A stretch of 64,000 nt of DNA from Gossypium raimondii (Eukaryota > Streptophyta > Magnoliopsida > Malvales > Malvaceae), in assembly GCF_025698545.1 (NCBI RefSeq), contig NC_068566.1, positions 4,633,362 through 4,697,361 on the forward strand, written 5' to 3'. Under the pieces are notes generated by a model that had not been told where the DNA came from, did not search any database, and saw only the letters and a program-made list of their open reading frames with translations. Position 1 is the first letter of the stretch. Each line of letters begins with the position of its first letter. Positions 21,222 through 64,000 of the stretch are shown here, one piece after another. Both the position numbers and the translations under genes were made by a program.

Positions 21222-21917
<696 letters not shown>

Positions 21918-21919
21918 CT

Positions 21920-25616: not shown

Positions 25617-25624
25617 CAATATCA

Positions 25625-26156: not shown

Positions 26157-26854
<698 letters not shown>

Positions 26855-26856
26855 CT

Positions 26857-32761: not shown

Positions 32762-33530
32762 AATATCCCCACACTTAAGTGTTTGCTTGTCCTCAAGCAA
32801 AATCCTCAACTCACAATTAAAATTAAATTTTCTCAACTCATAATTCTTATCAATGATGTTTCTTCATAATTCATAAATAATCATACATTGATAATTCAAC
32901 TAAAAGAGCACTAAAAATTTAAACAACCCAAGTCAAACATTTTAACGCATGAAAACATAGGTATTTCCCTTTATCTAACTAATTACCTTTAATTCAAAAT
33001 CGACAAGAATCGACATCCTCATTAAAGATTTACTCAAATCACTCAAAGTGTTTAAGTTTCAGGAATAAGCACTCAATAGTTAAACATGAAAAGTCATTAC
33101 CATAGGCTTGCATGAAAATCAAATCTCCACCACTATAAAATTAGATGATACACAAATCGAAAAGTCTTTAAGAGGTTGTAATGGGACTTAGGTTAAAGGT
33201 GTGAAGAAATGTTGAAAAAGATGGTTAAAATCGAGATCGAATTGATAAATTACCAAACTAGAAAAATAAACAAATGCTGAATTAAAAACAATTATATCAA
33301 TCAAAAACTGTTCAAGAATAACACAAACTTCTTCTCAAAATATAAATTTAACTGTTCAAGCTCAATTATCATAGAACTAAATAATAATCAATATATATGT
33401 ATTTTTTAAATTAATTAATTTTTAAAAATATCATGAAATAAGATTAAGAAAATTAGCAGTATTAGCACTCAGGTTACCTCCTGAAAAGCACTTATTTAAA
33501 GTCTAAGCTCGACTTACCTCACATTCGCAC
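32762..33530. other. Internal non-coding part of the Gypsy fossil
   Basis: AT-rich sequence between the 3' LTR and the integrase tail. No gene. Confidence 0.5.
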
Positions 33531-36526
33531 GGTTACGATGGTTCGCGGAGTCGAAACTCCTCTTTCTCGCTATCAATTCTATTATCAAAATAAGGTTTAA
33601 GTCGATGACTATTTACCTTAAATGTGCCGAATTCAGAATGAGTTACCTCAACTGTACCATATGGGAAGACATTCAGTACCGTAAAAGGAGTTGCTCCGTT
33701 TGCATTAAGCTTTGAAGTGGCAATAAGTGGATGTGTTTTATCTAGCAGTACCTTGTCCCCAACCTCAAATTGGTTTGTCCCATCCACATGCTCATTATGG
33801 CGTCGCTTTGGTTTTGTATCGTGTATTCTTGGTTTCTCCTTGACATGTGTCTGCCATTCGTCTAGTTCCTCGATATGTAACATTCGTTCTTCATGAGTCA
33901 TTCTGTTTCTGTCGTATGGATTGGAATGTGGCTTTATTACGTTTTTCTGAGGAGTTTCTTACAAAGAAGTTTAAGCCACAATGTTACTAATATTAACAAA
34001 ACTCGTATAATTATCTCGATCACTAGATGTCTTAACAGAATCACGAGCTTGTAGAGTAATCTTGTCATCACCTACACGAAGTATTAATTCACCTGTACCA
34101 ATATCAATAATAGTTCTAGCAGTTGCTAAAAAGGGCCGACCTAGAATCAAAGGTACGTCACTATCATCATCCATGTCTAAAACAACAAAATCAATTGGGA
34201 ATATGAATTTATCAATTTTGGCAAGAACATCTTCAATAATACCCCTAGGAAATCTAATGGTTCTATCTACTAATTGGATACTCATCCTAGTTTGTTTGGG
34301 TTTCCCAAGACCTAATTGTTTGAACATTTTATAGGGCATGACATTAATACTAGCCCCTAAATCAGCCAAAACATTATTAATATTCAAACTGCCAATTAAA
34401 TAAGGAATAGTAAAACTCCCTAGATCTTTCAATTTGTTAGGTAGCTTATTTTGCAAATTGGCTGAACATACTGCATTTAGCTCCACATGCGACGAATCAT
34501 CTAACTTCCGTTTGTTCGCCAAAAGCTTCTTTAAAAATTTAATGAAATTGGGCATCTGCGAAAGAGCTTCAATAAACGGTAAGTTAATATGCAACTTTTT
34601 CAGAAGTTTAAGAAATTTACCAAATTGTTCGTTCGTGTGGTCTTTTTTCGTCACCTTAAGATATGACACTCGAGGTTTTTTATCTCATATTTGCTTTTGG
34701 TGGAAAAATACCAATTGAAGTGAAGGGTTTTTTCAAACAACAAGGAGCTGGGTCAACTATTCAATCAAATGATATTGATCATGTTTCCCATCTCTTCTCG
34801 AGAGGCAAGTGGGCTATTTCTTTGCAAAATTGTGCTCAATTTCATATGTGGCAATTCCGCCAAGATCTCTTCGTTAGTTGGGGGAAGAATCCACATTTAT
34901 AATCTTTACTAACTAATTTTTGTTCATTCTGGCTTACCTCAACCTTACCGTTACTTACCACAACTTCTTCCTTTGGTTTTTATTCAGATTCAACTAACCC
35001 TTCTTCATCACGAACAGTAATTGTATGAAGCTGCTCTCTTGGGTTAGTTTCGATGTTGCTAGGTAAGCTACCTTGTGGTCGTTCTAATATTAGTTTAGCT
35101 AGTTAATCGATTTGATTCTCGAGCCCTTGAATTGATGATTGTTAATTTTTAAGCACTGATTCAGTGTATTGAAAGCAGGTTTTTGACAATGAGATAAACT
35201 TCGTCAACATCTCTTCAAGGTTCGGCTTCTTCTCTTGTTGGTAAGGTTGTTGTTGGAAGCCTGGAGGGGGTTATGCTATTTGATTTCCTTGACCACTCCA
35301 AAAGAAAATGAGATGGTTCCTCCAACCTTCATTATTACTATAAAGATTATTTTGAAGCCTGGAATTGTTACCCATATAGTTGATTTGTTTGTTCTCTGTA
35401 CTAGAGGCGTAGGGTAAATATTCTGGATTATTTATTCCACCTCCATTTACGTCGCATTGCACCAGCGGATGTACCTGCGTAGAAACACATAAACCATTAA
35501 TTTTTTATTTAAAAGTTCTACTTGATTCGATAACATGGTGACCACATCTAGGTTAAAAACATCGACTACTTTTGTCAGCTTTGTCCACATGACTTGCCAC
35601 TGATAATTATTCAGTGACATCTCCTCTATAAACTCACAAGCCACTTCAGGTGTTTTATTGTTCAGAGTACCACCGGTTGCTTCATCGATTAACTGCCTAG
35701 TTGAGGGATTCAAACCATTGTAGAAGGTTTGAACCTGTAGCCATAGAGGTAACCCATAGTGAGGGCACATTCTCAATAAATCCTTATACCTCTCTCATAC
35801 ATCATATAGGGTCTCTAATTCAATCTGCACGAAGGAAGAGGTATTATACCTCACCTTAGTTGTTTTAGCTGGTGGAAAGTACTTCAGTAAGAATTTCTCA
35901 GTCATTTAATCCCATGTAGTGATAGAACCTCGTGGTAAAGAATTCAACCACTGTTTAGCTTTATTCCTTAATGAAAAGGGAAGTAGGCGAATGGCGTCGT
36001 CAGAAATGCCATTTATCTTGAAAATATCGCAGGCTTCCAGAAAATTAGCCAAATGAGTGTTTGGATCTTCGTCTTGCAAACCATTGAACTGAACAAATTG
36101 TTGTACCATCTGAATAGTGCTCAACTTCAGTTCAAAATTATTCGCAACAATAGTAGGTCTTACAATACTTTATTCAGCCCCAGTTAGAGTGGGCTTGGCA
36201 TAATCGTCAGCTGATTATTCTGGTTATCACTCATCTCGTCAGTAATAAACGTCATCTTGCTCATCTACTATACTTTGTCGACTCTGCCTTGCTTTTCTAC
36301 GATTTCTACGAGCTGTACTTTCAATTTCGCTGTCAAATAATAGTGGTTCTGACGGGTTTCATCTAGCCATAAACTAAAGGAACCTGCCAGAAGCAAATAA
36401 AAGAAAAATTTGAAAACAAAACTTAAACTAAAAACAAAAATAAAATGTAATAAAAATAAATGGCTAAATTAATAAAAAAATCAAGTGTTTTTAATATTTT
36501 GGTCATCGGCAATGGCGTCAAAAACT

Positions 36527-37266
36527 TGATGGTTACTAAACCAACTATACTTACGATAAAGATAAGTGCACCTATCAAACAATAGTATAGCTATGGTAAG
36601 TAGGGAATATTGTATCCACGAGGACTAAAAGTATTAGTAATTACCATTTTTCTATTATTTAGACGACAAATTGGAGTGATTGTTTTTAATCTAGATTTAC
36701 TAATCGAATTTAACTAAAAACGCAACAGAGAATGAAATAGGAAAACAATCGAAGATAACCAATGAAAAAGACAATACCCAGGAAAGAATCCACCTGGACT
36801 TCACCTATTATTCTGAATTTGAATTAAATGATTTATTCACTTGTGCCTTGATCCGTAGAAATTCCTAAATTATGTTAATATCTCTTTCGAGAGTAAGAAC
36901 AACTGACTCTAGGTTGATTAATTGAAATATCTTTCTAATTAAAACCCCTATTGTCACATTAACTCGATCTATGGATTCCCCTATTAGATTTGACTCTAAT
37001 CCGGCAGATTTATGTCATCCTATTTCTAGGATTGCATGAAACTCCACTCAATTATGTTAGATTTACTCTTAATTAGGGAACTTTTGATCCACTGAAATTA
37101 GCACATTAAACATGAAGTAATATCCTAAAAATATTAAAACACGAAATAAGCATACATAATTGAGAGCAAGAATCAAGTATTTATCGCGTAAAAACAAAGA
37201 TTAAACAATAAGATTCATCATAGATTAAACAATGAGATTAAAATATATTACTTTTACAACTTATCA
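36527..37266 (-). repeat. LTR of the Gypsy fossil (right; 5' LTR)
   Basis: 740 bp, same ends as the left LTR, and shorter than it. The visible divergence between the pair points to an insertion that is not recent. Confidence 0.88.
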
Positions 37267-37619: not shown

Positions 37620-38330
37620 GTTGTTGCTTATTATCACTCTAGGTTAGAGGTAGCTTTGCAAAAAGAAGTCTAGCAACAAACTCTTCTTACAGAGATATAT
37701 TCTAAGATTTGAGGTCTTTTAACAATTTGTGGTACTCATGGATTTGCACCTTAATGTTTTTGTCATCAATCACCTCCACCCTATAGTACTTCCCTATTGC
37801 ACCTTAATGTTTTTGTCATCAATCACCTCCACCCTATAGTACTTCCCTATTGCAATTTTCTACTCACCAACAAATTCAATAATATGTTTAGTAATCTCAT
37901 AGTCCTAAATTCCTTTTGTTTCCATGTACAAATAGTAGACGTCAACAATTTCATTTGAAAGTGTGGAAACAATAGTGTGCCTGCATATATACTATATATT
38001 AGCATGAACCCATAGGTTAAATTGCTTAACTGAGAAATTAGTTTGTTTGCATTTTGTGAGCGCAAAGGCAACTCTATGCATATCTAGGATTGAAAAGGTG
38101 TATTCATTCCATCTCTTGAAATTATCCCTATCGAACACTTCAAATTTGAATATGCTAGGGAAGGGCTTGGCATAGGAAATATCAGGTAACATTGGCATTG
38201 CCACAATATTGGCAACAACATTGATAGCAAAGTTGGCAGTAGCACTAGCAATGAGGTTGATAGCAACATTAGATGTAGCAAGAGCAACAACAACATCAAC
38301 AATGACAATGGGATCCATAAGTATCCTCAA
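37620..38330 (-). mobile_element. Copia gag fossil
   Basis: Minus-strand text KPFPSIFKFEVFDRDNFKRW and, further on, QIHEYHKLLKDLKS is typical of Copia gag (UBN2-like). Only a gag portion remains. Broken, old, no LTRs identified. Confidence 0.65.
37746..37851. repeat. 53-bp perfect tandem duplication
   Basis: 37746-37798 is repeated at 37799-37851 without visible difference, inside the Copia relic. Confidence 0.95.
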
Positions 38331-42900: not shown

Positions 42901-43150
42901 ACTTTAACATTGCTTTTGGAAAGCATGATTTAAGATTTGAAGTGTTTAACAATCTTGTAAAAAAAGTGTTGTAAAGTGTTAAAATATCCATTATAGATAT
43001 GGTTTTCTAAAATAAAATAAAAGTTAATTTAAATGATACTCAAATTCGTTTATACTATGATGCATGAAATATCAATTTTAAATATTTTAAAGAAATTAAT
43101 ATAAATTATTTATAAAATTTAATTAGAATATATAAAACATATATTAGATG

Positions 43151-44286
43151 TTTTTTTTCGAATAATTCTGGCTGGATTTATATCATATGTAAAAAAGAAA
43201 ATTGGGCTAATAGCCACTACAATAAGGACTAGAGAAAGAAAACAAATCGGGCTTAAACTAGCTCATCTTGACCAAAATAAACAAAATTTGAAAATAAAGC
43301 TAATCCTATACCAGTCAAATCTAGATAGCTGGACACCATTAATTATCGTCTTTTCAAATCCACCGTCCAGTCATAATGATAGCAGGTTACCAATTTAATG
43401 CTTTGTCTCTGCTATCATTTAATGAAAACCTTTCCCTTTCTTCAATCCGGAGGATTTGGCCAGAGATTTCCTACCGTTCTCCGAACCACTTCTGGGACTT
43501 CCTTCTCCAGGTAAAAACTTTCTCTTCTTCTAAGAGCCTCCTTTGCTATAGTATGGGCATAAATATTCTGTGCTTTAGGGACGAAAGTAAACTCAATTTC
43601 TTGTAACCTGTTTTTTATACTTTGGATATCTGTGATAATTGCTCCAATGACTGATTTATCAGTGAAGAAGCTTTGGCATTTCTTGATAACAGTTTTGGAA
43701 TCTCCTAAAACTGTTAATTTATTGACTCCCAGTCTAATCCCTAATTTTATTGCCTGTAACCTTGCATATGCCTCTGCTGTGAATGGATCTACAATGATGG
43801 AGTGAATGACTGCCTGTGATGCAAGAATCTCTCTATTCTCGTTCCGTACTATTATACCTGAAGCCGATCTAAACTCCAGACGATCGTAAGCTGCATCAAA
43901 ATGAATGAAGGTCCATCTCCTTTTGTGTATCTGTTGGAGATTGTCAAATGAATGGAGAGTAATATTTCTTACTTTTGTTACTGCAAGTTCTGTAATATAG
44001 ACTCTGATTTTCTTCGCTATTTCTGATCCTAACATGAGTCTTTTTTCATATACGAGATGATTTCTGCTAAACCAGATGAACCAAAGGCTACAACAGAAAA
44101 GTTGAAGCTGCTCTTCATTACCTCAATCAAAAACCCAGGTAAGCCATCCCTACATGTTATTTATACTCTGATTCAGCACCCACGATAAATTTAACTGATT
44201 CCAAACTTCCATTGATCTAGGCTACTGAATAAAAATATGCTAGCTATTTTCTTCGGCACAACCGCACCTGGGACAAAGAGTGTTCA
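43151..44286 (-). mobile_element. L1-type LINE, 3' part (zf-RVT end, RNase H, 3' UTR, poly-A)
   Basis: The minus frame 44035-43442 is an RNase H domain: FIHFDAAYDR, AEAYARLQAIKLG and VLGDSKTVI hold the acidic residues, with AHTIAKEA near the end. Upstream (44290-44036) is the Cys/His end of the zf-RVT domain (TLCPRCGCAEEN), which contains stops such as TAG after EEN. Downstream is a 3' UTR ending in an A8 tract (43158-43151). It is the continuation of the LINE at 60971-64000, separated by inserted LTR elements. Confidence 0.9.
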
Positions 44287-44300
44287 TGTAACACCCCCTA
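44287..44300 (-). mobile_element. Outer solo LTR, short end piece
   Basis: TGTAACACCCCCTA, the 14-bp terminus of the solo LTR whose remainder is 58211-60965. It is preceded by the target duplication GTTCA (44282-44286). The last 5 bp (CCCTA) are the target duplicated by the inserted Gypsy element. Confidence 0.88.
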
Positions 44301-45435
44301 TGTAACAACCCGCTTTTGACCCTAATCGGAATAGTGGTTTCGGGACCACAAATTCGAGTCAAAAAAATATTTTAATATTATTTTTTTAGTCTACAGTATG
44401 TTAATTTATATGTGTGAAAATTTCGTGTGAAAATTTTATCGTTGGTGTGCTCGATTTAATTAAAAGGATTTAATCGTGTAAAATGCAAAATTAGCATGCT
44501 ATATGCAAAGGTACCTATTTGCTATGATTTTTATTATATGGAGTCCTTATGTTGTAATTTAATCATTAGAATTATGCATGGACAAAAATAGACAACCATT
44601 AAATAGTTTTCTAATTAAATCATTAAGGTTAAAATTGTAAAATGTATATTAAAATGTATTAAATAAATAAATAATGGTCATGCATGTGTTCATCTTTCTT
44701 GGCCGATTCTAAGAAGAAAAAAATAAATCTTTGGAAGCTTTAAACATTCGGCACCTTTAGGAGCTTAATTCGGGTATGTGTTTTGTTCGGTTTTCGATAA
44801 TTTTTACGTTTTTGAGATCGTTGCTTTGTGTTCTTCAAAACCCATGTCTTAATTTTGTGGATTGTTGATGATTTTGAAATGTGCCATTGATGAATGCTTG
44901 GACTTTGTGATAGTTGATGATGAAAAATGAAAGATATGTGATAGATTAATATGTTTTGTATTGGAATTTTTGGTGAAATTGAGTAAATAGGGCTAAATTG
45001 TGAAATTAAATTTTTGGGGGACTAAAATGTGAAATAAATGCAATGTGTGGACCTGTATGAGAACCATGAATATTCGGCCCTTGTGTGGTATGGGCAAATT
45101 TTGTATAAATTGTGTTTTATGCAATAGGGAGTAAATTGCAAAAATGTGTAAATATTAGGGGCAAAATAGTAATTTGCCAAATTATGTGTTTTTGGATTAA
45201 ATTGAACGCGTTAATAAATAAATTATCTTATTTTGAATATATTTAGATCGAGAACCAAAGAAATCGGAGTTAGATCGGGGAAAAGCCAAATTAGTCGAAT
45301 AATCGTCCGATTTTGATTTTCCATCGTCCGAGGTAAGTCTATTAGCTATTTAATTTTATTAAATCAGCATATGAGTATGTATATCAATGGTATGTGTGTT
45401 GAGTTGATTTTAAAAGTATAAAATTGGAATTGAAA

Positions 45436-45479
<44 letters not shown>

Positions 45480-47222
45480 TAGATTCGAATGACTATGAAT
45501 ATGCAAATATGCATATGAATGTCCTTGAAATAAATTTAGGTATGAACATATATGTACAAATTATATTCTAATATACATGTATATACATGTAAAATTTGTT
45601 GTATTGAAATTAGGTATGAAATTACAAAGGTATGAGATATATTCAACATATGTATGTGTGTGTGAATAAGGTGTGAATTTAGTATAAAATAGTTGTATAA
45701 GTTGGAGTGAATAAGTATGTATACTTATGAATAAATATTTATATTGAGTATAAGTATGAAATTATATATATATATGTTAAATTGAATATGTATGAGTATA
45801 TAGGTATATGTTCTTGTTTTGAATATAAGTATAGAGTAATATATGCTTGTTAGATTGAATATGCATATTTGTACATGTATAAGGTCCTGTATTGAGATGG
45901 TATATGAAGTTGTATGGGTATATATGGAATTCAAATGTTAAAGGTACCTAGTATATTATAAGTTAAATTTTATGATATTAGAAGTGGAATCTAAAGTATG
46001 AGGTTATATATACATAAATGTGTTTTGGTTGAATTATTGAGTTATTTAAGTTAGATTTGATGATTGGAATTTATATTTATCCATGTGTTTTTAAAGATAT
46101 AAGTTATGAATATTGAGCTGAATTTTGTGTGGATTTTATATACAAATAAGATATACAACTTCTGTGAATTGAGATTCTTTTGTTAAAGCTCAGTATCAAT
46201 CGGATTTATTGCCAGTGAAATTATTCAGACTATATGTCTAGCAGGCTAAGTGCCGGTGAATTGAATCAGGCTATAAGCCTAGAAGGCTAAGTGCCGGTGA
46301 ACTGAATCAGGCTATAAGCCTAGCAGGCTAAGTGCCGGTGAACTGAATTAGGCTATAAGCCTAGTAGGCTAAGTGCCGGTGAACTGAATTAGACTTTAAA
46401 CCTAGTAGATGAATTGCTAGTGAATCTGTTTAAATTAAGTGATTATATGCATTGGGTATAAAAATATATATATGCTTTTGATTATATGTAATGGACAAAT
46501 ATATGAACATTTGTTTCAATGTGTTTGATGAGTGTATAAATGTTTGAATCTTTGTGATTATTGAGTATGTGCATATATTGGTTTTCATGAAATTGTTGGA
46601 TATATATATATATGAACGCATTCGGCATATGTGGATTATAATTGTATAAGTGTATTCGGCACTTGTAATTGATAAGTATAAAAATATGTTATTGGTATAT
46701 GTATTTGGAAATTTATATATAAATGGATCCGATGAAGTGCGAACGAAAAATACACTAGAAATCAGTATATGCAGTTAATGATTATGTTGGTAACTTGATT
46801 ATATGTATATAATGTCTATACATATGTCTGTTTATGTGTATTAGTTAAATATACATTGTTTTATATGTATTTTAGATATGCTATAGACTTACTAAGCTAT
46901 GAAAGCTTACTTTGATTGTTTTTGTCCATTTGATTTATAGATTTTAGAGACGCGTTACGAGCTCGGGGATCATCAGCATAGTCTATCACACTATCGACTT
47001 CTTTTGGTATTTTGTTAAAATTTTGAACTCGACCTTATGGCATGTATAGGTTTGAATATGATTTTGGTTAGATTTGGATTGTAAAATATAAAGAGCCATG
47101 AGAAAATGGTTTAATTTACATGTTTGTAATCAGTTTGGTTTTAAAAAAAAGAAATGGTTGTGTTTGTTTGGTTATGTATCGTAACCCTAATTCGGCGACG
47201 GATACGGGTTAGGGGTGTTACA
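44301..47222 (+). repeat. 5' LTR of the chromovirus
   Basis: 2922 bp, begins TGTAACAACCCG and ends GGGGTGTTACA. Contains a (TA)n run at about 45437-45477 and a minisatellite at 46225-46402. Confidence 0.95.
46225..46402 (+). repeat. Minisatellite in the 5' LTR
   Basis: About four units of roughly 41 bp built on GCTATAAGCCTAG and GGCTAAGTGCCGGTGAA. The counterpart in the 3' LTR is 57200-57382. Confidence 0.85.
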
Positions 47223-49798
47223 TTTTATTGGTATCAGAGCTACGGTTTAGTCGATTCTAGGACTAACGTAGCGTGTATGAGTCTAACTATACATGTCGTA
47301 TTTTATACTGAGATAGTGTGAAGACTTCTGATATCTAAAAATGTGTTTTCGTATAGTAATGGATCCCGATCGAGCCGTAGCCGATGATGTTGAGAGTATA
47401 GCGCCTGCTCCCGCACAAGGGACAGAGCCAGTAAATTCTCGACCGACCTCGAGTAACCAGGAGGGAGAGGCTAAACAAGCCTTCTACCAAATGATGAATG
47501 ACTGGTTTACTCAATATGTCCGAACTAATCCGGTTGCACAACAACCTCCACCCCCGACTAATCCATCTTCGGTTCCTGTTATACCTCAAGTAAGTGATCC
47601 GATGAGATTACTTAAACCTCCTGTTGATAAAATTTGAAAACACGGGGCCGAAAAGTTCAGAGCTACTGATGGTGATGATGCTGAGCGAGCTGAATTCTGG
47701 CTTGATAATACTATTCGAGTATTTGATGAGTTATCTTGCACCCCTGACGAGTGCTTGAAATGTGCCATATCCTTGCTACGGGACACTGCATATCACTGGT
47801 AGAATACACTAGTATCGGTGGTTTCAAAAGAGCGAGTGACCTGGGAATTCTTTCAGACTGAGTTCCGTAAGAAATATATTAGCCAGAGATTCATTGATCA
47901 GAAACGTAAGGAATTTCTTGAATTGAAACAGGGTCGGATGACAGTGACAGAATATGAGCGGAAATTTGTGAGACTCAGTAGATATGCTCGAGAGTGTGTT
48001 TCAACTGAAGCTATTATGTGTAAAAGATTTGAAGATGGGCTGGATGAAGATATTAAACTGTTAGTGGGCATACTTGAGATAAAGGAGTTCGTAGTACTTG
48101 TTGAATGAGCTTGTAAAGCCGAGGAGCTCAGGAAAGAGAAGAGAAAAGCTGACTATGAAGCTCGAGATTCCTGTAAAAGATCATTTAGTAAATCGTTCCA
48201 GTCGGCCTCAAGGAAATCCAGAGAGGATCATAGCCGATCTAAAGCTACTGCAGGGTTTCCTAAGCATGATCGAGATCGACCCCTGTGAGTTCACGAGCTA
48301 CTTCAGTTGCTAGCGTTGGTAGTGTTCGACAAGATAGATCAGAATGCAAGCATTGTGGGAAATGGCATCCTGGAGATTGCAGATTACATGATCGGTCTTG
48401 CTTTAAGTGTGGTTCAAAGGATCATTTCATTCGAGAGTGTCCGATGGTAGCTGATCAAAACACTATGCAGAATACCAGACCGAGTAATATGTCAGTACGG
48501 GGTAGATCGCGAAGGCATTTGAGTAATGTAAGTGGTAGTCAGAGAGGGACAAAGGACACAGCAGTTCGATCTGAGGCTCGTGCACCTGCCAGAGCATATG
48601 CCATCCGAGCTCGAAAGGAGGCTTCTTCTCCAGATGTTATTACTGGTACTTTCACTCTTTATGATACTAATGTTATTGCGTTGATTGATCCTAGTTCGAC
48701 TCATTCTTATGTGTGTGAGACCTTAGTCTTCAGTAAGACTCTACCTGTTGAGTCTACTGAGTTTGTAATTAAAGTATCAAACCCCCTGGGTCGGTGTGTA
48801 TTGGTTGACAAAGTGTGTAAGAATTGTCCGTTGATGATTCGAGATTTGTGTTTTACGGCTGATTTGATGTTGTTGCCATTTGACGAGTTCGATATAATTT
48901 TGGGTATGGACTGGTTGACTTTACACGATGCTGTGGTTAACTGCAAAAGGAAGACTATTGATTTAAGATACCTGAATGACGAGATTATTCGGATTGAATC
49001 TAATGATCTGAATGGGTTATCGGCAGTGATATCCTCTATGTTGGCTCAGAAGTATGTGAGAAAAGGTTGTGAAGCTTATCTTGCATATATTCTTGATAGT
49101 AAAGTGATAGAAAAGAAGATTGAATCAGTACCTGTTGTATGTGAGTATCCAAATGTGTTCCCTGAAGAATTACCGGGTTTACCACCTATTCGAGAAGTAG
49201 AGTTTGGTATTGAGTTAGTACCGGGGACGACTCCAATTTCGATAGCTCCGTACCGCATGGCACCGACCGAATTAAAAGAATTGAAAGCACAGTTGCAAGA
49301 GTTGACTGATAAATGTTTTGCACGACCGAGTTTCTGTAACAGCCCAATTTTCAGTAGTGTCAGAACAATGATTTGAGATCACTAAATTCGATGAAAAAGT
49401 TAGAAATATTTTTGAATCAGTGAATTTTGTGATTTAAAAGAAATTATTAGGTAAATTGGGTAAAAACGAGGTATCGAGACCTCGATATCATAAAGCGAAA
49501 TGTAAATATTTTTATAAATATTTACAGAGTGTCAATAGGATAATATTAAAGTTTCGTTAAGAAATTTTAACGTTTCGATAGTTAATTATGAAAAGGATTA
49601 AATTGCAATTGGGATAAAAGTTTAATTATAGATTAAAGAAAAGTTAAAAGGACCAAATAGGCAATTATGCCTTTTTCCAAAGTTGAGGCGGCATAAGTAT
49701 AAAAATCTGAGATTTTATGTGTTAAAAATATTATTATATTATAGTAATGATTATGTTTTTATATTATATTATATTATTATATTATTATATATATATGA

Positions 49799-49920
49799 CA
49801 AAGAAAGAAAGAAAAGAAACAGAGAGCAAAACAAAACAGAGAAGGGAGAAAGAAAGAAACAGAGAGCAAAACGAAACAGAGAAGGGAGAAAGAAAGAAAG
49901 AAAGAAAAAGAAAAAGAGAA
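49799..49920 (+). repeat. Purine-only repeat tract in the solo LTR
   Basis: AAAGAAAGAAA-type tract with a near-perfect repeat of AACAGAGAGCAAAAC and CAGAGAAGGGAGAAAG. The outer solo LTR has the matching pyrimidine tract near 60200-60300. Confidence 0.85.
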
Positions 49921-51009
49921 ATTTGGGGTTTTAAGGTTCAGAGTTAATTTGGTAAGTCAATTTAATCCCTTTTCTCTTAGTTTTGAAGTTTTTGGAATCC
50001 TAGAGATAAATACTACTTGATTTATGTTGATATTTTGAAAGTTAGTAGATTATTAGATGATGTTCATGTTGAATAAATTGAAGTGTTAGGGGTTAAATTG
50101 ATTGAATTTTAAGTTAGAAGTTAGTAAAGGATTTAATTGTAAAATAAAGTGTAAGTTTTGAATAGTAGGGACTAAATTGAAAGAATCCCGAAATTAGGGA
50201 TTTATGGGGAAATTGAAGAGTTAAAATGAGTTTATAGTAAGAATTAAGAGAGAATATAGAGTTAGATTGGGAAAAATAAAATTAGTATTGATAAGGGATT
50301 AAATTAGAATTTGGGTAAAGTTTAGGTATACGGGAAATATTTTAATGAAATTGTGTATTAATGATTTTTAATTGTTTAATTACGTAGCTAATGTCGTGCA
50401 CGAGTCATTGTCCGAGAAAGGAAAGGAGAAAGTGGACAAGGAGTGACTCGAGAGAAATTCCGGTTAGTATTACCATAATTCGAATTTAATTATTAATCGT
50501 TAAAATTTAAATTAATATACATGATAAGAAAATTGAGGTGAGTATCATGATTGAATCGAATGAAATATATATATATATATATACGTATTGATATTGAATT
50601 TATTGATAGTAATTGTTGAATTTTGAATAATATGTTTAGTAAATAAAAATAAGGAGAATATCGATATTTAATTGAATGAATTAAAATATGAATTGAATAA
50701 AAGTGAATTAAATTATGAATAAGTGTGAATACGTGAATTGAGTATTGACTGAAAAGTGGTTTGATTCAATCAAGTATGATTTGTGAAATATGTATTGGTA
50801 CTTGAATCGTACATTGATTTGAATGTGGGAAGTGAATTTGAAATAGAAAATGTATTGAATCAAATGGTGATTAAATTGGAATGATTTGAATTGAAAGTAT
50901 GAGAAAGTGATTGAATTGAAATGTGATTCGAAACCCTATTAACTAGTCGGCTGAGTCGGATATAGTTGGCATGCCATAGAATTGGAAGTGTTCAGGATAC
51001 TTGACCTTG

Positions 51010-51150
51010 AGTCGATGAGACACTGGGTGTCATCTTGTTACTTGAATAGATTCGATGAGGTATTGGTACCAACTTACTTGACTTTGCCGATGAGACACCG
51101 GTGTCAACTATTGCTTCGAACTATCCGATGAGGCACCGGGTGCCATTCGT
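51010..51150 (+). repeat. GATGAGRCACYGG tandem repeat in the solo LTR
   Basis: Four units starting at 51014, 51054, 51089 and 51127 (35-40 bp spacing). The same array appears in reverse in the outer solo LTR at about 59080-59235. Confidence 0.85.
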
Positions 51151-54100
51151 GTGTTTGGTTGGATCTGTATCCGCCAAGGTCCGAGTCTTGTTAATAGGGT
51201 AAATAATTGAAATGAGAAAATTTGAATAAGTGTGACTGATTGGGATATGGAAAGAAATGAGAAAGTGAAATTGTGAATTGATATGTGAATTGGAAATCGA
51301 GATATGAGATTTAAATATATGAACCCAAAGTTCATAATATGATAAAGAGTAAATTTTGTTATATGATATTAGTGAGTAAAATTGCAATAAAATTGATATT
51401 GAATATAAATTAAATGAAATGAATTGTATATGAATTGAAATGAACTATTGGAATGAGATGTAAAGAAAAAAAATCCCACGGAATTGAGATAGTGAAATAA
51501 GGTATGAATACAATTAAATATAAGATTTGAATTATTGCTTATTGTTATTAATTATCAAGTTGATTTAATGTATGAGATAATTAATGAATAATTGTAGACA
51601 TAAATAAAATATATATAATTTATCGATTAATGTTATTAATTTGAATTATGGTAATACCACTGAGTATACCCATACTCAGCGTACGGTTGTTTTCGTGCGC
51701 AGGTTAGTAAAAAAAACCAGTGTTCGATCCAGCATCCAAAGTAATCCCGACCTCAGAGACATTTTAGTGATGTACCTTTCTGTTGATAATGTGGCATGTA
51801 CCTAGGTAATGTATATACCTAAGTGATGTATAGGGATTAGTCATTTTGAATGTTGTATCTATGAGATTGCTAAAGAAAGATGTGTGAGTATGTGATAATG
51901 TTTGGCTTTTAAAATGGTTAAGTATGAAAATCAAGAAAGGGTAAACTTTGCAAAGAAACAGAATTCAGGCAGCAACAGTGACGTAACTTGAAAAATCACC
52001 TAGGATAGTATAAAATGAATTAGAGGGTGAATGATATATTAAATTAAAGCTTGTTAAGTCTATTTTCATATAAAAATAACGGTTTAGCAAAAAGAATTTT
52101 ATATTTTAAGATATGTGAATTTTAGTGAGACAGGGTCAGAACTGTTTTGGAGTCCCCTGTTCTAAGTTTAGAAAATCACTAAAATGGTACAAAAATAATT
52201 ATGAGTTGTAGTTTATATGTATAGAATACTTATTGAGTCTATTTTCTGTAGAAACAAGTAATAACTTCATATGACAATCCTACAATGAGAAATTTTATTT
52301 TTAGTGACAAGAGGTCAGGGCAGTCAATTGGTGAAACAGGGCTTACTTTAACTAATAAACTGTACTAATTGGCTGGACCAAAAATTATGAAATTTTTATG
52401 GTAGGAAGATATATGAGTCTAGTTTCAGGGAAAATTTATGGAATTAAATTTCGAGTTCCGTAGCTAAAATTATAAGTAATTTAGTAACTGCTGCGCGATT
52501 GGGCATATTTGTTGTAAACTGTTTGATACTTCCGGTAATGCCTCGTAACCCTATTCTGACGATGGTTCGGGGTTAAGGGGTGTTACAGTTTCTCTCCTTG
52601 GGGGGCACCAGTTCTATTTGTGAGAAATTAATATGGAACGATGAGAATGTGTATTGATTATCGACAACTCAATAAGGTGACTATAAAGAATAAGTATCCG
52701 CTACCACGTATTGATGATTTGTTTGATCAGCTAAAAGGGGCTTCAGTGTTTTCGAAGAGAGATTTGAGATCGGGCTATTATCAGTTGCGAGTTAAAGACT
52801 CAGATGTGCCAAAAACAGCTTTCCGAACGAGGTACGGACATTACGAATTTCTGGTTATGCCTTTCGGACTTACTAATGCACCTACTGTTTTCATGGATTT
52901 GATGAATCGGATCTTTAGACAGTATCTGGATCGGTTTGTGGTAGTATTTATAGATGACATTGTGATCTACTCTCGTGACGAAACTGAGCATGCCGAACAT
53001 CTGAGATTTGTGTTACAAACTTTGTGAGATAAACAGTTGTATGCAAAATTCAGTAAATGTGAATATTGGTTGCGTGAAGTCAGTTTCTTAGGCCATGTTA
53101 TATCGGCATCAGGCATTCGGGTTGATTCGAGCAAGATTTCGGCTATACTTGATTGGAAACCTCCGAGAAATGTTTCGAAAGTTCGAAGTTTTCTGGGACT
53201 TGCTGGTTATTATAGACAGTTCGTAAAAGGATTCTCTATGATTGCAACCCCGATGACAAAGCTACTACAGAAAGACATTAAGTTTGAGTGGTCAGAAAAG
53301 TGCCAGAAAAGTTTTGATCAGTTGAAAGCTCTTTTGACCGAGGCTCCAGTATTAGTTCAGCCAGAATCGGGTAAAGAGTTTGTTATCTATAGTGATGCAT
53401 CTTTAAATGGTTTGGGCTGTGTTTTGATGCGGGAAGGCAAAATTGTAGCCTATGCCTCGAGACAGTTAAAGTCGCACGAAAAGAACTATCCGATGCACGA
53501 TTTGGAATTGACAGCTATTGTATTTGCGTTGAAAATATGGCGCCACTATTTGTTTGGCGAAAAATGTCATGTTTATTCCGATCACAAAAGCCTGAAGTAC
53601 TTGATGACTCAGAAAGATCTGAATTTGAGACAGCGCCGATGGTTAGAATTGCTAAAAGATTACGAGCTTGTGATTGACTATCATCCGGGAAAGGCTAATG
53701 TTGTTACTGATGCCTTAAGTCAAAAATCACTGTTTGCTTTGTGTGCAATGAACGCCCATATGGCTATATCTGATGATGGTGCGATAGTAGCTGAATTGAA
53801 AGCAAAACCGTTACTTGTTCAACAGATTTGTGAAGCTCAGAAAGCTGATGATGATTTAATTGCAAAACGAGCTCAGTGTGACTTAAATGTTGATTCAGAA
53901 TTTCTAGTTGATGCTGAGGATTGTTTGAGATTCAGAAACCGATTATGTGTTCCGAGAAATTCAAAGTTAATACAGGAGATTTTGAATGAAGCTCATAATA
54001 GCTGATTTTCTGTTCATCCGGGAAGTACGAAAATGTATAACGATCTGAAGCAGCACTATTGGTGGCATGGTATGAAACGAGACATTTCTGACTTTGTTTC

Positions 54101-55279
54101 GAAATGTTTAATTTGTCAGCAAGTTAAAGTCGAGCATCAGGTACCATCTGGATTGCTTCAGCCGATCATGATACCTGAATGGAAATGGGATCGAGTTACG
54201 ATGGATTTTGTATCCGGTTTACCGTTGACACCAAGCAAGAAAGATGCAATCTGGGTTATTGTTGATAGGCTGACAAAATCGGTGCACTTTATTCCGATTC
54301 GCACGGATTTCCCACTCGATAAACTTGCTGAATTGTATGTTTCTCAAATTGTGAGATTGCATGGTGGTGTGCCTATTTCTATTGTTTCAGACAGAGGAGA
54401 TTCACATCGCGATTTTGGAAGAAACTACAAGATGCTTTAGGTACGAAACTTCATTTTAGCACAGCTTTCCATCCGCAGACAGATGGTCAATCTGAACGAA
54501 TCATTCAGATACTTGAGGATATGTTGAGATGTTGCATTCTCGAGTTTGAAGGTACGTGGGAACGATACTTACCTTTGATTGAATTTGCTTATAATAATAG
54601 CTTTCAATCTAGTATCAAAATAGCACATTACGAGGCTTTGTACGGTCGTAAATGTCGTACACCAATGTATTGGACCGAGCTCAGTGAAAATAAGATACAT
54701 GGGGTTGATTTGATTAAAGAGACTGAACAGAAAGTGAAAGTGATTCGGGATAGTCTGAAATCAGCATCGGATCGTCAGAAATCTTATGCGGATTTGAAAA
54801 GAAAGGATATAGAATTTCAGATCGGGGATAAAGTGTTTTTGAAAGTCTCACCGTGGAAGAAAATACTCAGATTCGGTCGTAAAGGCAAATTGAGTCCGAG
54901 ATTCATTGGACCGTATGAGATTATAGAGCGTGTTGGACCGGTTGCTTATAGATTGATGTTACCGCCTGAGTTAGAAAAGATTCATAACGTATTCCATGTT
55001 TCGATGCTCCATAGATACCGATCTGATCCGTCACATGTGATTAGTCTGACGGAGATTGAAATTAACTTTGATATGTCATATGAAGAAGAACCGATTAGCA
55101 TTCTGGCTCGTGAGATCAAAGAATTACGAAATAAGAAAATTCCGTTAGTTAAAGTATTGTGGCATAAACACGGAGTTGAAGAAGCAACTTGGGAGTCAGA
55201 AGATACAATGAAAGAGCGTTATCCAAACCTATTCACCGGTAAGATTTTCGGGGACGAAAATCCTTAAAGGGGGGAGAGT

Positions 55280-58205
55280 TGTAACAACCCGGTTTTGACC
55301 CTAATCGGAATAGTGGTTTCGGGACCACAAATTCGAGTCAAAACAATATTTTAATATTATTTTTTAGTTTACAGTATGTTAATTTATATGTGTGAAAATT
55401 TCGTGTGAAAATTTTATCGTTGGTGTGCTCGATTTAATTAAAAGGATTTAATCGTGTAAAATGCAAAATTAGCATGCTATATGCAAAGGTACCTATTTGC
55501 TATGATTTTTATTATATGGAGTCCTTATGTTGTAATTTAATCATTAGAATTATGCATGGACAAAAATAGACAACCATTAAATAGTTTTCTAATTAAATCA
55601 TTAAGGTTACAATTGTAAAATGTATATTAATATGTATTAAATAAATAAATAATGGCCATGCATGTGTTCATCTTTCTTGGCCGATTCTAAGAAGAAAAAA
55701 ATAAATCTTTGGAAACTTTAAACATTCGGCACCTTTGGGAGCTTAATTCGGGTATGTGTTTTGTTCGGTTTTCGATAATTTTTACGTTTTTGAGATCGTT
55801 GCTTTGTGTTCTTCAAAACCCATGTTTTAATTTTGTGAATTGTTGATGATTTTGAAATGTGCCATTGATGAATGCTTGGACTTTGTGATATTTGATGATG
55901 AAAAATGAAAGATATGTGATAGATTAATATGTTTTGTATTGGAATTTTTAGTGAAAATGAGTAAATAGGGCTAAATTGTGAAATTAAATTTTTGGGGGAC
56001 TAAAATGTGAAATAAATGCAATGTGTGGACTTGTATGAGAACCATGAATATTCGGCCCTTGTGTGGTATGGGCAAATTTTGTATAAATTGTGTTTTATGC
56101 AATAGGGAGTAAATTGCAAAAAAGGTGTAAATATTAAGGGCAAAATAGTAATTTTCCAAATTATGTGTTTTTGGATTAAATTGAACGTGTTAATAAATAA
56201 ATTATCTTATTTTGAATATATTTAGATCGAGAACCAAAGAAATCGGAGTTAGATCGGGGAAAAGCCAAATTAGTCGAATAATCGTCCGATTTTGATTTTC
56301 CATCGTCCGAGGTAAGTCTATTAGCTATTTAATTTTATTAAATCAGCATATGAGTATGTATATCAATGGTATGTGTGTTGAGTTGATTTTAAAAGTATAA
56401 AAATTGGAATTGAAAGTATATATATATATATATATATATGCTAGATTCGAATGACTATGAATATGCAAATATGCATATGAATGTCCTTGAAATAAATTTA
56501 GGTATGAACATATATGTACAAATTATATTCGAATATACATGTATATACATGTAAAATTTGTTGTATTGAAATTAGGTATGAAATTACAAAGGTATGAGAT
56601 ATATTCGAACATATGTATGTGTGTGTGAATAAGGTGTGAATTTAGTATAAAATAGTTGTATAAGTTGGAGTGAATAAGTATGTATACTTATGAATAAATA
56701 TTTATATTGAGTATAAGTATGAAATTATATTTATATATATATATATATATATGTTAAATTCGAATATGTATGAGTATATAGGTATATGTTCTTGTTTGAA
56801 TATAAGTATAGAGTAATATATGCTTGTTAGATTCGAATATGCATATATGTACATGTATAAGGTCCTGTATTGAGATGGTATATGAAGTTGTATGGGTATA
56901 TATGGAATTCAAATGTTAAAGGTACCTAGTATATTATAAGTTAAATTTTATGATATTAGAAGTGGAATCTAAAGTATGAGGTTTTATATACATAAATGTG
57001 TTTTGGTTGAATTATTGAGTTATTTAAGTTAGATTTGATGATTGGAATTTATATTTATCCATGTGTTTTAAAGATATAAGTTATGAATATTGAGCTGAAT
57101 TTTGTGTGGATTTTATATACAAATAAGAGATACAACTTCGTGAATTGAGATTCTTTTGTTAAAGCTCAAGATCAATCGGATTTATTGCCGTGAAATTATT
57201 CAGACTATATGTCTAGCGTGCTAAGTGCTTGAATTGAATCAGAGCTATAAGCCTAGCGGTGCTAAGTGCTTGGTGAACTGAATCAGGCTATAAGCCTAGC
57301 AGGGCTAAGTGCTTGGTGAACTGAATCAAGCTATAAGCCTAGCAGTGCTAAGTGCTTGAACCTAATTAGACTTTAAACCTAGTAGATGAATTGCTAGTGA
57401 ATCTGTTTAAATTAAGTGATTATATGCATTGGGTATAAAAATATATATATGCTTTTGATTATATGTAATGGACAAATATATGAACATTTGTTTCAATGTG
57501 TTTGATGAGTGTATAAACGTTTAAATCTTTGTGATTATAGAGTATGTGCATATATTGGTTGTCATGAAATTGTTGGATATATATATATATATATATGAAC
57601 GCATTCGGCATATGTGGATTATAATTGTATAAGTGTATTCGACACTTGTAATTGATAAGTATAAAAATATGTTATTGGTATATGTATTTGGAAATTTATA
57701 TATAAATGGATCCGATGAAGTGCGAACGAAAAATACACTAGAAATCAAGATATGCGTTAATGATTATGTTGGTAACTTGATTATATGCATATAATGTCTA
57801 TACATATGTCTGCTTATGTGTATTAGTTAAATATACATTCTTTTATATGTATTTTAGATATGCTATAGACTTACTAAGCTATGAAAGCTTACTTTGATTG
57901 TTTTTGTCCATTTGATTTATAGATTTTGGAGACGCGTTACGAGCTCGGGGATCATCAGCATAGTCTATCACACTATCGACTTCTTTTGGTATTTTGTTAA
58001 AATTTTGAACTCGACCTTATGGCATGTATAGGTTTGAATATGATTTTGGTTAGATTTGGATTGTAAAATATAAAGAGCCATGAGAAAATGGTTTAATTTC
58101 CATGTTTGTAATCAGTTTGGTTAAAAAAAAAAAGAAATGGTTGTGTTTGTTTGGTTATGCCTCGTAACCTTAATTCGGCGACGGATACGGGTTAGGGGTG
58201 TTACA
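55280..58205 (+). repeat. 3' LTR of the chromovirus
   Basis: 2926 bp, same ends as the 5' LTR and nearly colinear with it. Confidence 0.95.
57200..57382 (+). repeat. Minisatellite in the 3' LTR
   Basis: Counterpart of 46225-46402, but its units read GCTAAGTGCTTG instead of GCTAAGTGCCGG throughout. Confidence 0.8.
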
Positions 58206-58210
58206 CCCTA

Positions 58211-60965
58211 ACCCCAACCGTCGCCGGAACAGGATTACGAGGCATTACCGGACATATCAGATAATCTACAAATAATTCATAAACAATTAACAAACATATA
58301 CAAAAGAGTCATAAATTCATTTAAATTTTACTAATTGAATTCATTCAAATTTTTTTTCTTCTTTTAAATATATATATTTTTACATACAACCTCCTGCAAT
58401 TAAAATTCATAACATTTCCAAATATAACCAAATCAACCAATTCATTTCACGTTCTCATTTTCTATTCTAAATACTTCTAATCAAACTCAATCTACATGAT
58501 ATTAATTTAAATTTAACAAAACAATAAATAAATCAAATTAGGTAAACTTCATTCATTATAAATCTTAAACTTATAATACTAACATTTTTAACCATTTATA
58601 TTAAACATAATAATCTTTATACACATCCTATGTACATGCCACATTTACCAAAGAAAATATACATCCCTAAAGTTACGCTGAAGTCGGGATTGATCTGGAT
58701 GCTGAACCGGGACTTTTGACTTCTATCGACTGCCATACGAAAAAACAATCAGACATGAGTATTTCATACTCAGTGGTATTACCATAATTCAAATTATAAC
58801 AATAATAAACATGTAATGCATAATTCGTATATACAATTTAAATTCAATATCTCAACAATAGCAATTCATCAACCAATATCATATATCCACAATTTGAGTT
58901 TAAACAAATCATGAACCTTAGGTTCATTTCTCAATCTCATTTCACATTTCAATTCGCAATTCAACTTTTTCATTTCATTTCAATAGCTCGTTTGACCAAA
59001 TCGTTCGGTTTATCATTTCATCATTTACCCTATTAACAAAACTCGGACTTTGGCGGATACATGGATCCAACCAAACACACCAGAATGGCACCCAGTGCCT
59101 CATCGGATAGTTCGAAGCAATAGTTGACACCCAGTGTCTCATCGGCCAAGCCGAAGTAAGTTGGTACCCAGTACCTTGTCGAAACTATCCGAAGAAATAT
59201 AGTGACACCCAGTGTCTCATCGACTCGAGGTCGAAGTATCCCTGAACTCTTCCAATCCTATGGCATGCCAACTATATCCGACTCAGCCCGACTAGTTAAT
59301 AGGGTATTTAAATCACATATAACCTCAATTCAATCACAATTTCTCACATTTTCAATTCAATCATTTTTCCACCTTTCAATCAATAATTAATCCACAATTT
59401 CATACATTTTCACAACTCAATACATTTCCATACAATTTAATACCATTCACAATTCGATTCAAATTCATTTCCCAATTTCAATCAACAAACAATTCAAATA
59501 TTTATTCATATCGACTATTCAATTTAATTCCCACTAATAATACTAATACTAATACTAATATTAATACTTACCTCACATTTCATTTACAAACACATAATTT
59601 AAAATTTAACATTTAATGATAAATAACTTGAATTATAGTAATACAAACTGTGATTTTCTCGAGTTTACTCCTCGATAATCTTCTCCTTTCCCTTTGATGC
59701 TGATGCCTCGGGTTCTTTGTTAGCTACGAAAATAATAATAATTTATACTATTAATTTCAGCACTAATTATGATAAATAATTGAATTTCTATTCAATTTCT
59801 TCCTTATTCTCAATTTAATCCTAACTAAATTCACTTACTTTCCTAACTCAATTCACACTCTATTTCTATTCAAATTCCATCCAAACTCAAATTTAACTAT
59901 CAAAATTTCAGCATATTTTCTTAATTTCGAATTTCCCTCAATTTAGTCCCTAAAACATAAAATTTATAGTTTCTTTTACAATTTAATCCCTTATCAATTC
60001 CAATCAAAATTTCTATCAAATAAACCCTCAATTCCATCATTTATTCAACATAAACCCTATTCAAAATCTATTAACTTTCTAAATATCAATTTAATTCCAT
60101 CAAAACTTTGTTTTAAAACTTCTAAAACATTAGAATTAAGAAAAAGGGCTAAATTGACTTACCAAATTAAATTTCAAGCCTCAAAACCCTATTTTCCCTA
60201 TTTTCTTCTTTCTTTCTTTCTCCCTGTTTCTTCTCTGTTTCGTCACTTCTATTCTGTTTCTTTCTTTTCTTTTCTTTTGCTTTGTTTTTATTTCCTTTTA
60301 TTTCATTTACTTTATATTATATTAATATCTATTTAATATCAATATTCATTTTACATTTGGTCACACTTTTATTTTTACATTTGTGCCAATAGTTTTATTA
60401 CAATTGTCATTATTTAATTTGTTTACCAAATAAAAATCTCATGATATAATTAATTAATTAATTAATTAATTAATATCTTTACTTAAATTTTAAGTAAATA
60501 ATAATTATAATACAAGTGTATATATATATATGTTATTACACTTGTACTATCCTATCACCACACATTTGTCTTAATTTTAACTTATTCCACAATAAAATAA
60601 TATAATTAATATAAATCACCATTTAAATAAATAATTATAATAATTATATACATATAATATTTATATATATCTTAATTAAAATCTTAGATTTTAAGCGTTT
60701 ATGCCGCCTCATTTCATATAAATGGCTTAATTGCTATTTTAGCCCTTTTCACTTTCTTTTAATCTATAATTAGACTTTCACTCTTTATTCAATTTAATCC
60801 TTTTTACTAATTACTCATAATTAAACTAAATTTACCTATCCAAAACCTACTTAAACACACAACTAGCCTCGTAAATATTTCTAATAATTATTTCTGAACT
60901 CAAATTACTAAGACGGAGGCCCGATATTATACTTTTCCGATGCCCGCGAATTTTGGGTCATTACA
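58211..60965 (-). mobile_element. Outer solo LTR, main piece
   Basis: With 44287-44300 it forms an LTR of about 2.77 kb, read on the minus strand as TGTAATGACCC..GGGTGTTACA. The target duplication GTTCA is at 44282-44286 and 60966-60970, bracketing the whole stack. It has no coding region. It shares the GATGAGRCACYGG array (59080-59235) and the purine/pyrimidine tract with the solo LTR at 49335-52587. Confidence 0.9.
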
Positions 60966-60970
60966 GTTCA

Positions 60971-63900
60971 TCACTAACCTCTTTATTTTGAGGTTGACAA
61001 AGGAAGGGATAAAATCCCAAGAAATCCTCCATATTGTCATCTGAATCTTTGAAGGGATATGTAACTTCTATAATTTGTTGTAGAAATTTTTTGTCTCGTT
61101 ATGTAATAATAAATCATTAGGGTCCAGATTAGAACCATGTAATAGTTTATAGGCACTCCTCACCGAGAACTCCCCTGTCGGTTCTCCTCTCCATACTTGA
61201 AGATCTTCTTGTTCTGTCTCCGCAAGAGGGATTTGTAATATTTGCTCTGCAACATCTGGTTGAAAGGTATTTCTTATCAGCTCTGTTTTCCAGCTCCTGC
61301 TATTTGGCTCAATTAAATCCAAGACTAATTTAACATTTTCATTATCTTCTTGAATCGTGATTCTGTTACCTTCGATCCCCGATATCCATGAATCTCCCCG
61401 TATGGAAATTTGATCACCTCTCTCCACCCTCCAACAGCGTCCATTATCAAGAAGTCCTCTCGCAGCCTATATACTTTTCCAGGTAAATGAAGGTAAATTC
61501 CCCAACTGAGCTTTGTAGAAATCTAAATTGGGAAAATATTTTGCTTTCAAAACACGGGCCAATAATGAATTCGAATAATTAATAAGACGCCATCCCTGCT
61601 TCGCTAATAATGCAACGTTAAATTTAGCAAAATCATGAAAACCGAGACCACCATCTTCTTTTAATAGACATATATCCTTCCAAGCGCACCAGTGGATACC
61701 TTTTTTATTAAATCTCTTTTGCCACCAAAAGTTGGCTATTATTCTATCCAAATCTGTACAAAGCGTCTTAGGGAGTAGAAAACAAGCCATCGAGTATGTT
61801 GGAATAGCTTGGAGAACTGCCTTAATAAACACTTCATTTCCTTATTGTGAGAGATACCTAATACTCCAACTGTCGATTTTTTGCTTGAGTTTGTCCTTCA
61901 AATTTTGAAAAGATAATCTCTTTCTTTTCCCCACCATACTAGGAAGTCCTAGATATCGCTCAAAATCATTAGCTCTTCTGACTCCAAGGATCTGTGAAAC
62001 AACACTCCTTTCACTCTCTTTTGTATTAGTACTGAAGAAAACAGTCGAGTTTTCAAAATTCACACATTGCCTAGAACTTGTCTCGTATTCTTGCAGTATC
62101 TGTTTTAATGAATGTGCTCCCCTATCCGTAGCTTCTGCAAATAAAATACAATCATCTGCAAATAGTAAATGGGAGATAACTGGCCCTTCTCGACTTGTTT
62201 TAACACCTTTAAAAACATTATCCTCTTTTGCTAACCTCATTAGACTTGAGAGTCCTTCTCCACAAATAAGAAATAAAAATGGACTTAAAGGATCCCCTTG
62301 CCTAAGACCTCTCGATGGGAGAAACATTTGACCAATATTTCCATTGAAACTCACAGAGTATGAGACTGAAGAGACACAATTCAGTACTAAATCAACCTAT
62401 CCTGGGTCAAAACCCATTTTTTTCCATTACTCCTTTAACAAACCCCCATTCAACCCTATCATATGCCTTACTCATGTCCAGTTTAATAGCCATGAATCTT
62501 TTTTTCCCCAATCTCTTCAGTTTCAAAGTGTGTAGAATTTCATAAGCAAGTAACACATTATCAGAAATCAGCCTTCCTGGAACAAAAGCACTCTGTGCTA
62601 AATCAATACATTTATAAATTATCCCCCGTAGCCTATCCGCAATGACTTTAGCAATCAATTTGTAAATCACATTACATAAACTAATAGGTCTAAAATGGGT
62701 AATGCTTAAGGGATTCTGGATTTTTGGGATGAACACAATATTTGTTTTATTAATTGAATGTAACTCCATACATTGGTTTAATCTTTGGAGACAAAAATTG
62801 GAGACGTCATCCCCAACAATTGACCAACACTTTTGATAGAATAAGGCTGGGAAACCATCCTCTCCCAGTGCTTTTGTAGGACCCATTCCTGAAAGAGCTT
62901 CCCGAATTTCCTCCTTTGTGAACCTTGCCTTCAGTTTAATGTTATCTTCCTTAGAAATACACCTTCTAATACCTGTTAAGATATTCTCAAAGTTATTTTG
63001 CCCTTCTGTTGAAAACAAACGTAAAAAGTACGATCTGGAAATTTCCTCCATATCCTTCCATTCATCCGTCTCCCTACCGTCTTCACCCTGCAACTTGTGG
63101 ATTCTATTTTGCTTCCTTCGTTGCGATGCTTGTTTATGAAAAAAATTTGTATTTCTGTCTCCCATTTTCAACCAATTAATTCTGGCCCTCTGCTCCCAAT
63201 AGCTTTCATCCTTCTCAATTTCTAAATTTAGATGGATTTTTGTGTCAATAATCTCTGCCAAGTTCTCCTTACTTCTATTCGCTTCAAGCAACATTTCTAA
63301 TGTTGACAATAAGACCTCATTTTTCATCCTTTTATTCTGTTGGAACCAGACACTCCACCTTTGTAACCCTCGTTTTAAATTTTCCAGCTTCTTCACAAGG
63401 TCTCCTGTAAGTTTTCCCAAATACTTTTAGTCTCATCCAAGAATGTCTCTTTCAAAATCCACCATGCTTCAAACCTGAACCTCTGATCTGCTATCCTTTT
63501 AACTCTGTGATCCGTATCAATAAGAAGTGGACAATGGTCTGAAAATGAATGTGGGAGGTGTTGAATTATAAAATTTGGAAATAAGTCACTCCATCGTTCT
63601 GTTGCCACTCCTCTATCTAATCTTTTATGGATATTAGTTTCTGGCAGATTTCCTCTCTCCCACGTAAACCTCTTTCCTGAATAACCCAAATCCACTAAAC
63701 AACAATCTTCCAAAGCCTTCCGAAATGCTTCCATCCTTTTCTCTTCTCTAGGCAAACCACATTTCTTCTCAAAACCATATAAGATTTCATTAAAATCCCC
63801 ACAAACCAGCCATGAGTCATCTCCCTGGTTTCTTAATTGTCGCAACAAGTTCCATGATTCCTCCCTATCATATGAATAAGGGGAACCACAAAAACCTATA

Positions 63901-64000
63901 AAGCTCCACTTTTCTCCATCTCCTTCTTCCTCAATGATCACATCAATATGTCTACTTGAAAAACTCTGTAGTGTAATACTAGCATTCCTTCTCCATGCTA
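60971..64000 (-). mobile_element. L1-type LINE, 5' part in window (endonuclease, RT, zf-RVT)
   Basis: Runs off the right edge. In minus order: AP-endonuclease end (63941-63393: VCGDFNEIL, HSFSDHCPLLIDTD); RT (63420-61842: IVFIPKIQNPLSITHFRPIS, MAIKLDMSKAYDRVEW, LRQGDPLSPFLF, and the catalytic FADDCILF); the connector GIHWCAWKDICLLKEDGGLG; then GEFSVRSAYKLL of the zf-RVT region (about 61150). Defects: a frameshift near 63400, a frameshift plus TAG near 62400-62390, an in-frame TAA near 61853, a TAG near 61464, and a stop at 61068. It resumes at 44286 after the inserted LTR elements. Dead copy, moderately old. Confidence 0.93.

Follow-up and report, generated by a model that had tools for sequence, protein, structure and literature searches.

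We analyzed a 64,000-nt stretch of the Gossypium raimondii genome (C2:4633362-4697361), hereafter the window, in which retrotransposons lie nested within one another from position 43151 to the right edge. The stack was almost certainly built by four successive retrotransposition events. The nesting order, i.e., a long interspersed nuclear element (LINE), an outer solo long terminal repeat (LTR), a chromovirus and an inner solo LTR, is well supported because paralogous empty sites were found at each junction. Three nested units were identified, each with TG...CA termini and a perfect 5-bp target-site duplication (TSD), with the unit ends read in the window, and the terminus GTGTTACA is common to all three LTR types. 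What is shown directly is how the elements nest, their TSDs, the empty sites in paralogs and what each element is. An earlier note on this DNA had described the nesting and quoted the TSDs GTTCA, CCCTA and GTTTC, all of which are present, and its element types and order are likewise backed by the domain matches, the perfect duplications and the empty sites of the same genome. Relatives were searched for in 750.8 Mb on 281 contigs; these repeat searches score the best 40 candidates, so that counts taken from them are lower bounds.

The outermost junction lies in the LINE, which reads on the minus strand and is divided into a 3′ part (43151-44286) and a 5′ part (60971-64000, continuing past the window to ∼65421). 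Between them lies the outer LTR, also in minus orientation as read from the primer-binding site (PBS) side in its relatives. It is made up of its final 14 bp, in its own orientation, at 44287-44300 and the other 2,755 bp at 58211-60965, in total 2,769 bp, and it is flanked by GTTCA at 44282-44286 and 60966-60970 (unit ends read). The two junction flanks were searched separately, and flanks that stopped short were projected to the junction. This yielded 29 non-self LINE loci, of which 23 hold both flanks within 15 bp of the junction. An overlap of exactly 5 bp between the flanks is seen in 22 of these 23 testable loci, and one of 6 bp in the remaining locus. GTTCA or a variant of it is thus single in the LINE copies: the two closest (96–97% identical) carry GTTCA once, and more distant ones mostly carry variants, e.g., ATTCA. 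The LINE homology, on whose continuity across 44286/60971 the earlier note had made its reading depend, therefore continues in 23 non-self loci. The split placed there is real, with the small correction that the TSD ends at 60970 and 60971 is the first base past it.

The chromovirus was found inside the outer LTR, 14 bp from its end. Its TSD CCCTA is located at 44296-44300, where it is part of the outer LTR, and at 58206-58210, and relatives of the outer LTR carry the word once. As only 14 bp of the outer LTR lie left of the chromovirus, the empty site was assessed by reading the 3′ ends of 20 relatives, from 40 candidates scored. All 20 fetched relatives run through to the LTR terminus without a chromovirus, and 12 of them show the exact end expected of the uninterrupted outer LTR. 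The chromovirus spans 44301-58205, which is 13,905 bp with its insert and 10,647 bp of its own; the 13.9 kb given in the earlier note is thus correct when the inner LTR is counted. We also observed an imperfect 97-bp palindrome (79%) at 58153-58249. It consists of the 3′ end of the chromovirus and the end of the outer LTR, and it arises because the two LTRs are related but oppositely oriented.

The inner LTR (49335-52587, 3,253 bp) lies in the chromovirus in plus orientation, again read from the PBS side in relatives, and is flanked by GTTTC at 49330-49334 (unit ends read) and 52588-52592. It sits just before the reverse transcriptase (RT) domain: the open reading frame (ORF) to its left stops in the linker between protease and RT, and the RVT_1 match begins to its right. 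The chromovirus flanks on either side were searched separately, with 40 matches listed for each, and only non-self copies common to both were counted. In all eight such copies the flanks overlap by exactly 5 bp, so the duplicated stretch is single there as judged by position rather than by fetched letters. The window's own copy shows a gap of 3,253 bp between the same flanks.

The following steps best account for the stack. An L1-type LINE inserted first, and an LTR element then entered its 3′ region, duplicating GTTCA. The two LTRs of this outer element would have recombined to leave a solo LTR, which may have happened before or after the chromovirus landed. A Tekay-like chromovirus entered this LTR 14 bp short of its end and duplicated CCCTA. 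A further LTR element then entered where the RT region of the chromovirus begins, with duplication of GTTTC, and would likewise have been reduced to a solo LTR. Staggered cuts made by integrase and LTR–LTR recombination are the mechanisms that we infer for these steps.

The earlier note expected relative dates for the three LTR events and the LINE. The order was obtained for all of them. Solo LTRs give no date on their own, and direct dating is confined to the chromovirus, which alone keeps two LTRs; the others are bracketed. A self-comparison of the window found one long LTR pair in the region, 44301-47222 and 55280-58205, with 54 substitutions over 2,894 sites and 23 gaps covering 60 columns. 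The Kimura two-parameter distance is 0.0189, or 0.0095 per lineage. For the LINE, comparison with three near copies gave 44 private changes over 2,540 sites (0.0173), which is an upper bound on its age; the three copies themselves hold 30, 35 and 127 private changes. As a rough clock, these figures (0.0095 vs. 0.0173) do not contradict the nesting order. They place the insertion of the outer LTR in a bracket of about 0.0095 to 0.0173 substitutions per site. The inner element entered, and was reduced to a solo LTR, later than the chromovirus. Rates in use are 1.3e-8 per site and year (the rice rate) and, alternatively, 7e-9. With the former rate the chromovirus is ∼0.73 and the LINE at most 1.33 million years old; with the latter the values are ∼1.35 and, as an upper bound, 2.5 million years. 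Gene conversion between its LTRs would make the chromovirus look younger.

The chromovirus reads on the plus strand, is bounded by a pair of long LTRs with TG...CA termini and is flanked by a 5-bp TSD. The 5′ LTR (44301-47222, 2,922 bp) is 98.1% identical to the 3′ LTR (55280-58205, 2,926 bp) outside gaps, and the BLAST identity with gaps is 96.1%. A PBS, TGGTATCAGAGC, was read from the sequence at 47229-47240, 6 nt past the LTR, and presumably matches the initiator Met tRNA. A polypurine tract (PPT) stands just before the 3′ LTR. The coding region is open in pieces only. Left of the inner LTR (47803-49334) it comprises gag (Retrotrans_gag, E = 8.5e-16), a zinc knuckle (zf-CCHC, E = 6.3e-5), protease (RVP_2, E = 7e-31) and the stretch preceding RT. 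Right of it (52588-55264) follow RT (RVT_1, E = 3.2e-28), RNase H (RT_RNaseH, E = 3.1e-33), integrase (Integrase_H2C2, E = 6.9e-15) and a chromodomain-like C terminus (SH3_Tf2-1, E = 1.3e-28). The Pfam matches thus occur in the order gag, protease, RT, RNase H and integrase. From this architecture and the LTR length, we consider the element to be Tekay-like. The two sides of the inner junction differ in their nearest relatives: among the matches listed, 48735-49334 is 97–99% identical to 11 copies, and 52588-53187 is 93–96% identical to three copies and 90–92% identical to the rest. The chromovirus is possibly a mosaic.

Both of the other LTRs are single, have no internal region and are flanked by a TSD, i.e., they are solo LTRs, and the nearest relatives of each are usually solo as well. 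The outer LTR has full-length relatives with identities of up to 95%. For 19 relatives both ends were fetched: 14 have identical 5-bp TSDs, two match at four of five positions, and three adjoin internal sequence, two of the latter belonging to one element. The outer LTR type also occurs in a complete element at C8:36049285-36059254 with a PBS, a PPT and the TSD ATTTT, and fetched pieces of this type of element gave protease, RT and integrase C-terminal (SH3_Tf2-1) matches. For the inner LTR, all eight near-end-to-end relatives with fetched ends have their own perfect 5-bp TSDs. Less similar relatives among the matches listed form pairs ∼6–7 kb apart on C1, C7 and C8. The inner type is also found in an LTR pair spanning ∼C8:51201590-51211608, with a PBS, a PPT and 92% identity in the first 1,881 positions. 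The internal region of this relative (L106, C8:51204960-51208230) is ∼3.2 kb long, has a PBS and a PPT and contains no ORF longer than 118 aa. The domain pieces of the window's chromovirus gave no tblastn match in it; good matches were obtained in L107 and L108. The lack of longer ORFs and of a chromovirus domain match in L106 suggests that the inner element, or its family, may be non-autonomous. We considered whether the inner and outer LTRs form one family and rejected this, as they are only 63% identical in a global alignment; they are related, with shared local blocks of 74–84%.

The oldest layer carries the domains of an L1-type LINE. Its 3′ part contains a short poly(A) tail, the downstream end of ORF2 and an RNase H-like domain (Pfam RVT_3, E = 1.1e-16). 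Compared with solved structures, the RNase H-like piece had a single match under 0.001, 3hst_B (E = 4.4e-4), which adds nothing. The 5′ part contains the RT (RVT_1, E = 7.5e-13 and 2.9e-8), and the continuation beyond the window (L039) holds the endonuclease (Exo_endo_phos, E = 1.5e-13) and ORF1 (DUF4283, E = 5.9e-28; zf-CCHC_4, E = 5.5e-12). Endonuclease and RT are therefore on one strand, with the DUF4283/zinc-knuckle ORF1 upstream of them. The 3′ end is defined by the A-rich tail, seen as an 8-nt poly-T on the plus strand at 43151, where the similarity of four other copies also stops. The 5′ end lies outside the window at ∼65421, where a copy on C5 loses similarity; a copy on C7 does so already at ∼65169. 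On either side of the LINE lies a copy of a 77-bp direct repeat (87% identity), at 43068-43142 and, in window-like numbering, 65668-65744 (L039 2028-2104). Its copies lie 8 bp past the LINE 3′ end and ∼246 bp past the 5′ end, and these unequal distances led us to reject it as the TSD of the LINE; it is possibly an older repeat in the target.

Three observations weigh against a stack of four insertions of the kinds named here. Firstly, no TSD was found for the LINE, either as exact words in 10 kb beyond the window or by a local alignment placed at the mapped LINE 5′ end, where the best score was 7.5 against a shuffle mean of 8.4. The statement that every target duplication is readable thus applies to the three younger elements and fails for the LINE. 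As it has no detectable TSD, the LINE is called L1-type by its domains, and its TSD may have decayed. Secondly, six of the 29 LINE loci do not hold both flanks up to the junction and are hence outside the empty-site count. Thirdly, the Chromo match of the chromovirus (E = 0.0021, 18.4 bits) is below the Pfam curated cut-off of 25.1; it is located at the expected C terminus of integrase.

The position of the chromovirus 14 bp from an LTR end raises the idea of an integration hotspot in the genome, which would add to the four-event history rather than replace it. If true, the stack reflects targeting, not chance. We searched for an LTR-end anchor followed by TGTAACA within 30 bp and obtained 121 places, of which 100 were listed; a reversed control gave 25. 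A gap of exactly 5 occurs in 11 of the 100 listed places, whereas the other gaps average 3.0 (p ∼0.008, corrected for 31 gaps), and the next highest is gap 30 with nine. The exact chromovirus start occurs at gap 5 in three of four places, including the window, and these three are also among the 11. However, the anchors are open to confounding, as there are 997 matches at gaps 31–61, of which 100 were listed, most of them belonging to an LTR family with TGTAACA at a fixed internal place. Furthermore, in a test of the opposite junction with a strict anchor, none of 26 showed the expected gap; the gap-7 matches of this test seem to be variants of the LTR start that differ by one base. LTRs are also among the least used nesting targets in a survey of 12 plant genomes (PMC6911290). 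The counts amount to a weak excess, and we consider a hotspot improbable. It is similarly hard to credit that integration recurs at the TGTAACACCCCTAA-like LTR termini of this chromovirus group, the duplicated word occupying positions 10–14 from the end.

Could this copy of the chromovirus have transposed with the inner LTR already in it? Such a composite would have moved as a unit, and the two innermost events would be reversed. The junctions alone would be compatible with a composite copied in trans. The eight inner-LTR relatives with fetched ends, however, all have other TSDs, none of them GTTTC, and the eight non-self chromovirus copies found by both flanks are all without the insert, with no second composite among the best 40 candidates. 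This makes a transposed composite highly improbable, and an insertion of the inner element into the resident chromovirus is preferred. Finally, that the junctions are assembly joins has next to no chance of being correct: repeats of such size can be misassembled, but random joins would not be expected to produce perfect TSDs on three levels, nor target words that are single in the paralogous empty sites, and the window contains no N. Because of the empty-site results at all three junctions, chance TSDs and assembly joins are both very unlikely.

Outside the stack, the window contains a tandem duplication of ∼376 bp at 4398-5152 (98.7% identical), two more direct-repeat pairs of LTR-element size at 21159-27549 and 31527-37222 (90 and 92% identical, respectively), to whose ends no TSD was assigned, and a 53-bp unit repeated 2.1 times at 37744-37854 (100% identity).

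Taken together, the locus is a clean, routine case of plant genome growth, a textbook nested-retrotransposon stratigraphy that is very cleanly preserved. Nothing in it departs from published work on nesting, solo LTRs or order inference, and it opens no new biology. Its value is that of a calibration example, in which the nesting order, the directly dated middle layer and the empty sites of the same genome all agree. Nesting is a common feature of plants: Jedlicka et al. (2019; PMC6911290) count 1,491 such pairs across 12 plant genomes, with 5-bp TSDs being the commonest. Our stack resembles these nests in that LTR retrotransposons are inserted in others with 5-bp TSDs. It differs in having four levels, of which the oldest is a LINE and two are solo LTRs, and in that the chromovirus lies in an LTR, a least-used target there. 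The Tekay chromoviruses of beet, e.g., Bongo, have untruncated LTRs of ∼2.6–3.0 kb and total lengths of 8.4–11.6 kb (PMC3605345). The present chromovirus falls within this size range (10.6 kb without the insert) and is like them in LTR length, 5-bp TSD and Met-tRNA PBS (presumed here); they carry a chromodomain at the integrase C terminus, where the present element has the Chromo match below cut-off. Unlike in these elements, the PBS lies 6 nt past the LTR instead of up to 3, and the inner LTR interrupts the coding region. Tekay solo LTRs have been reported in cotton and explained by LTR–LTR recombination (PMC12557855); that study, which used the rice rate, gives counts for whole genomes, with A subgenomes exceeding D subgenomes, and does not cover this locus. 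REANNOTATE (PMC2672092) automates the inference of order from nesting and of age from LTR pairs. Its logic is in principle the same as ours, and the locus looks like routine input for it.

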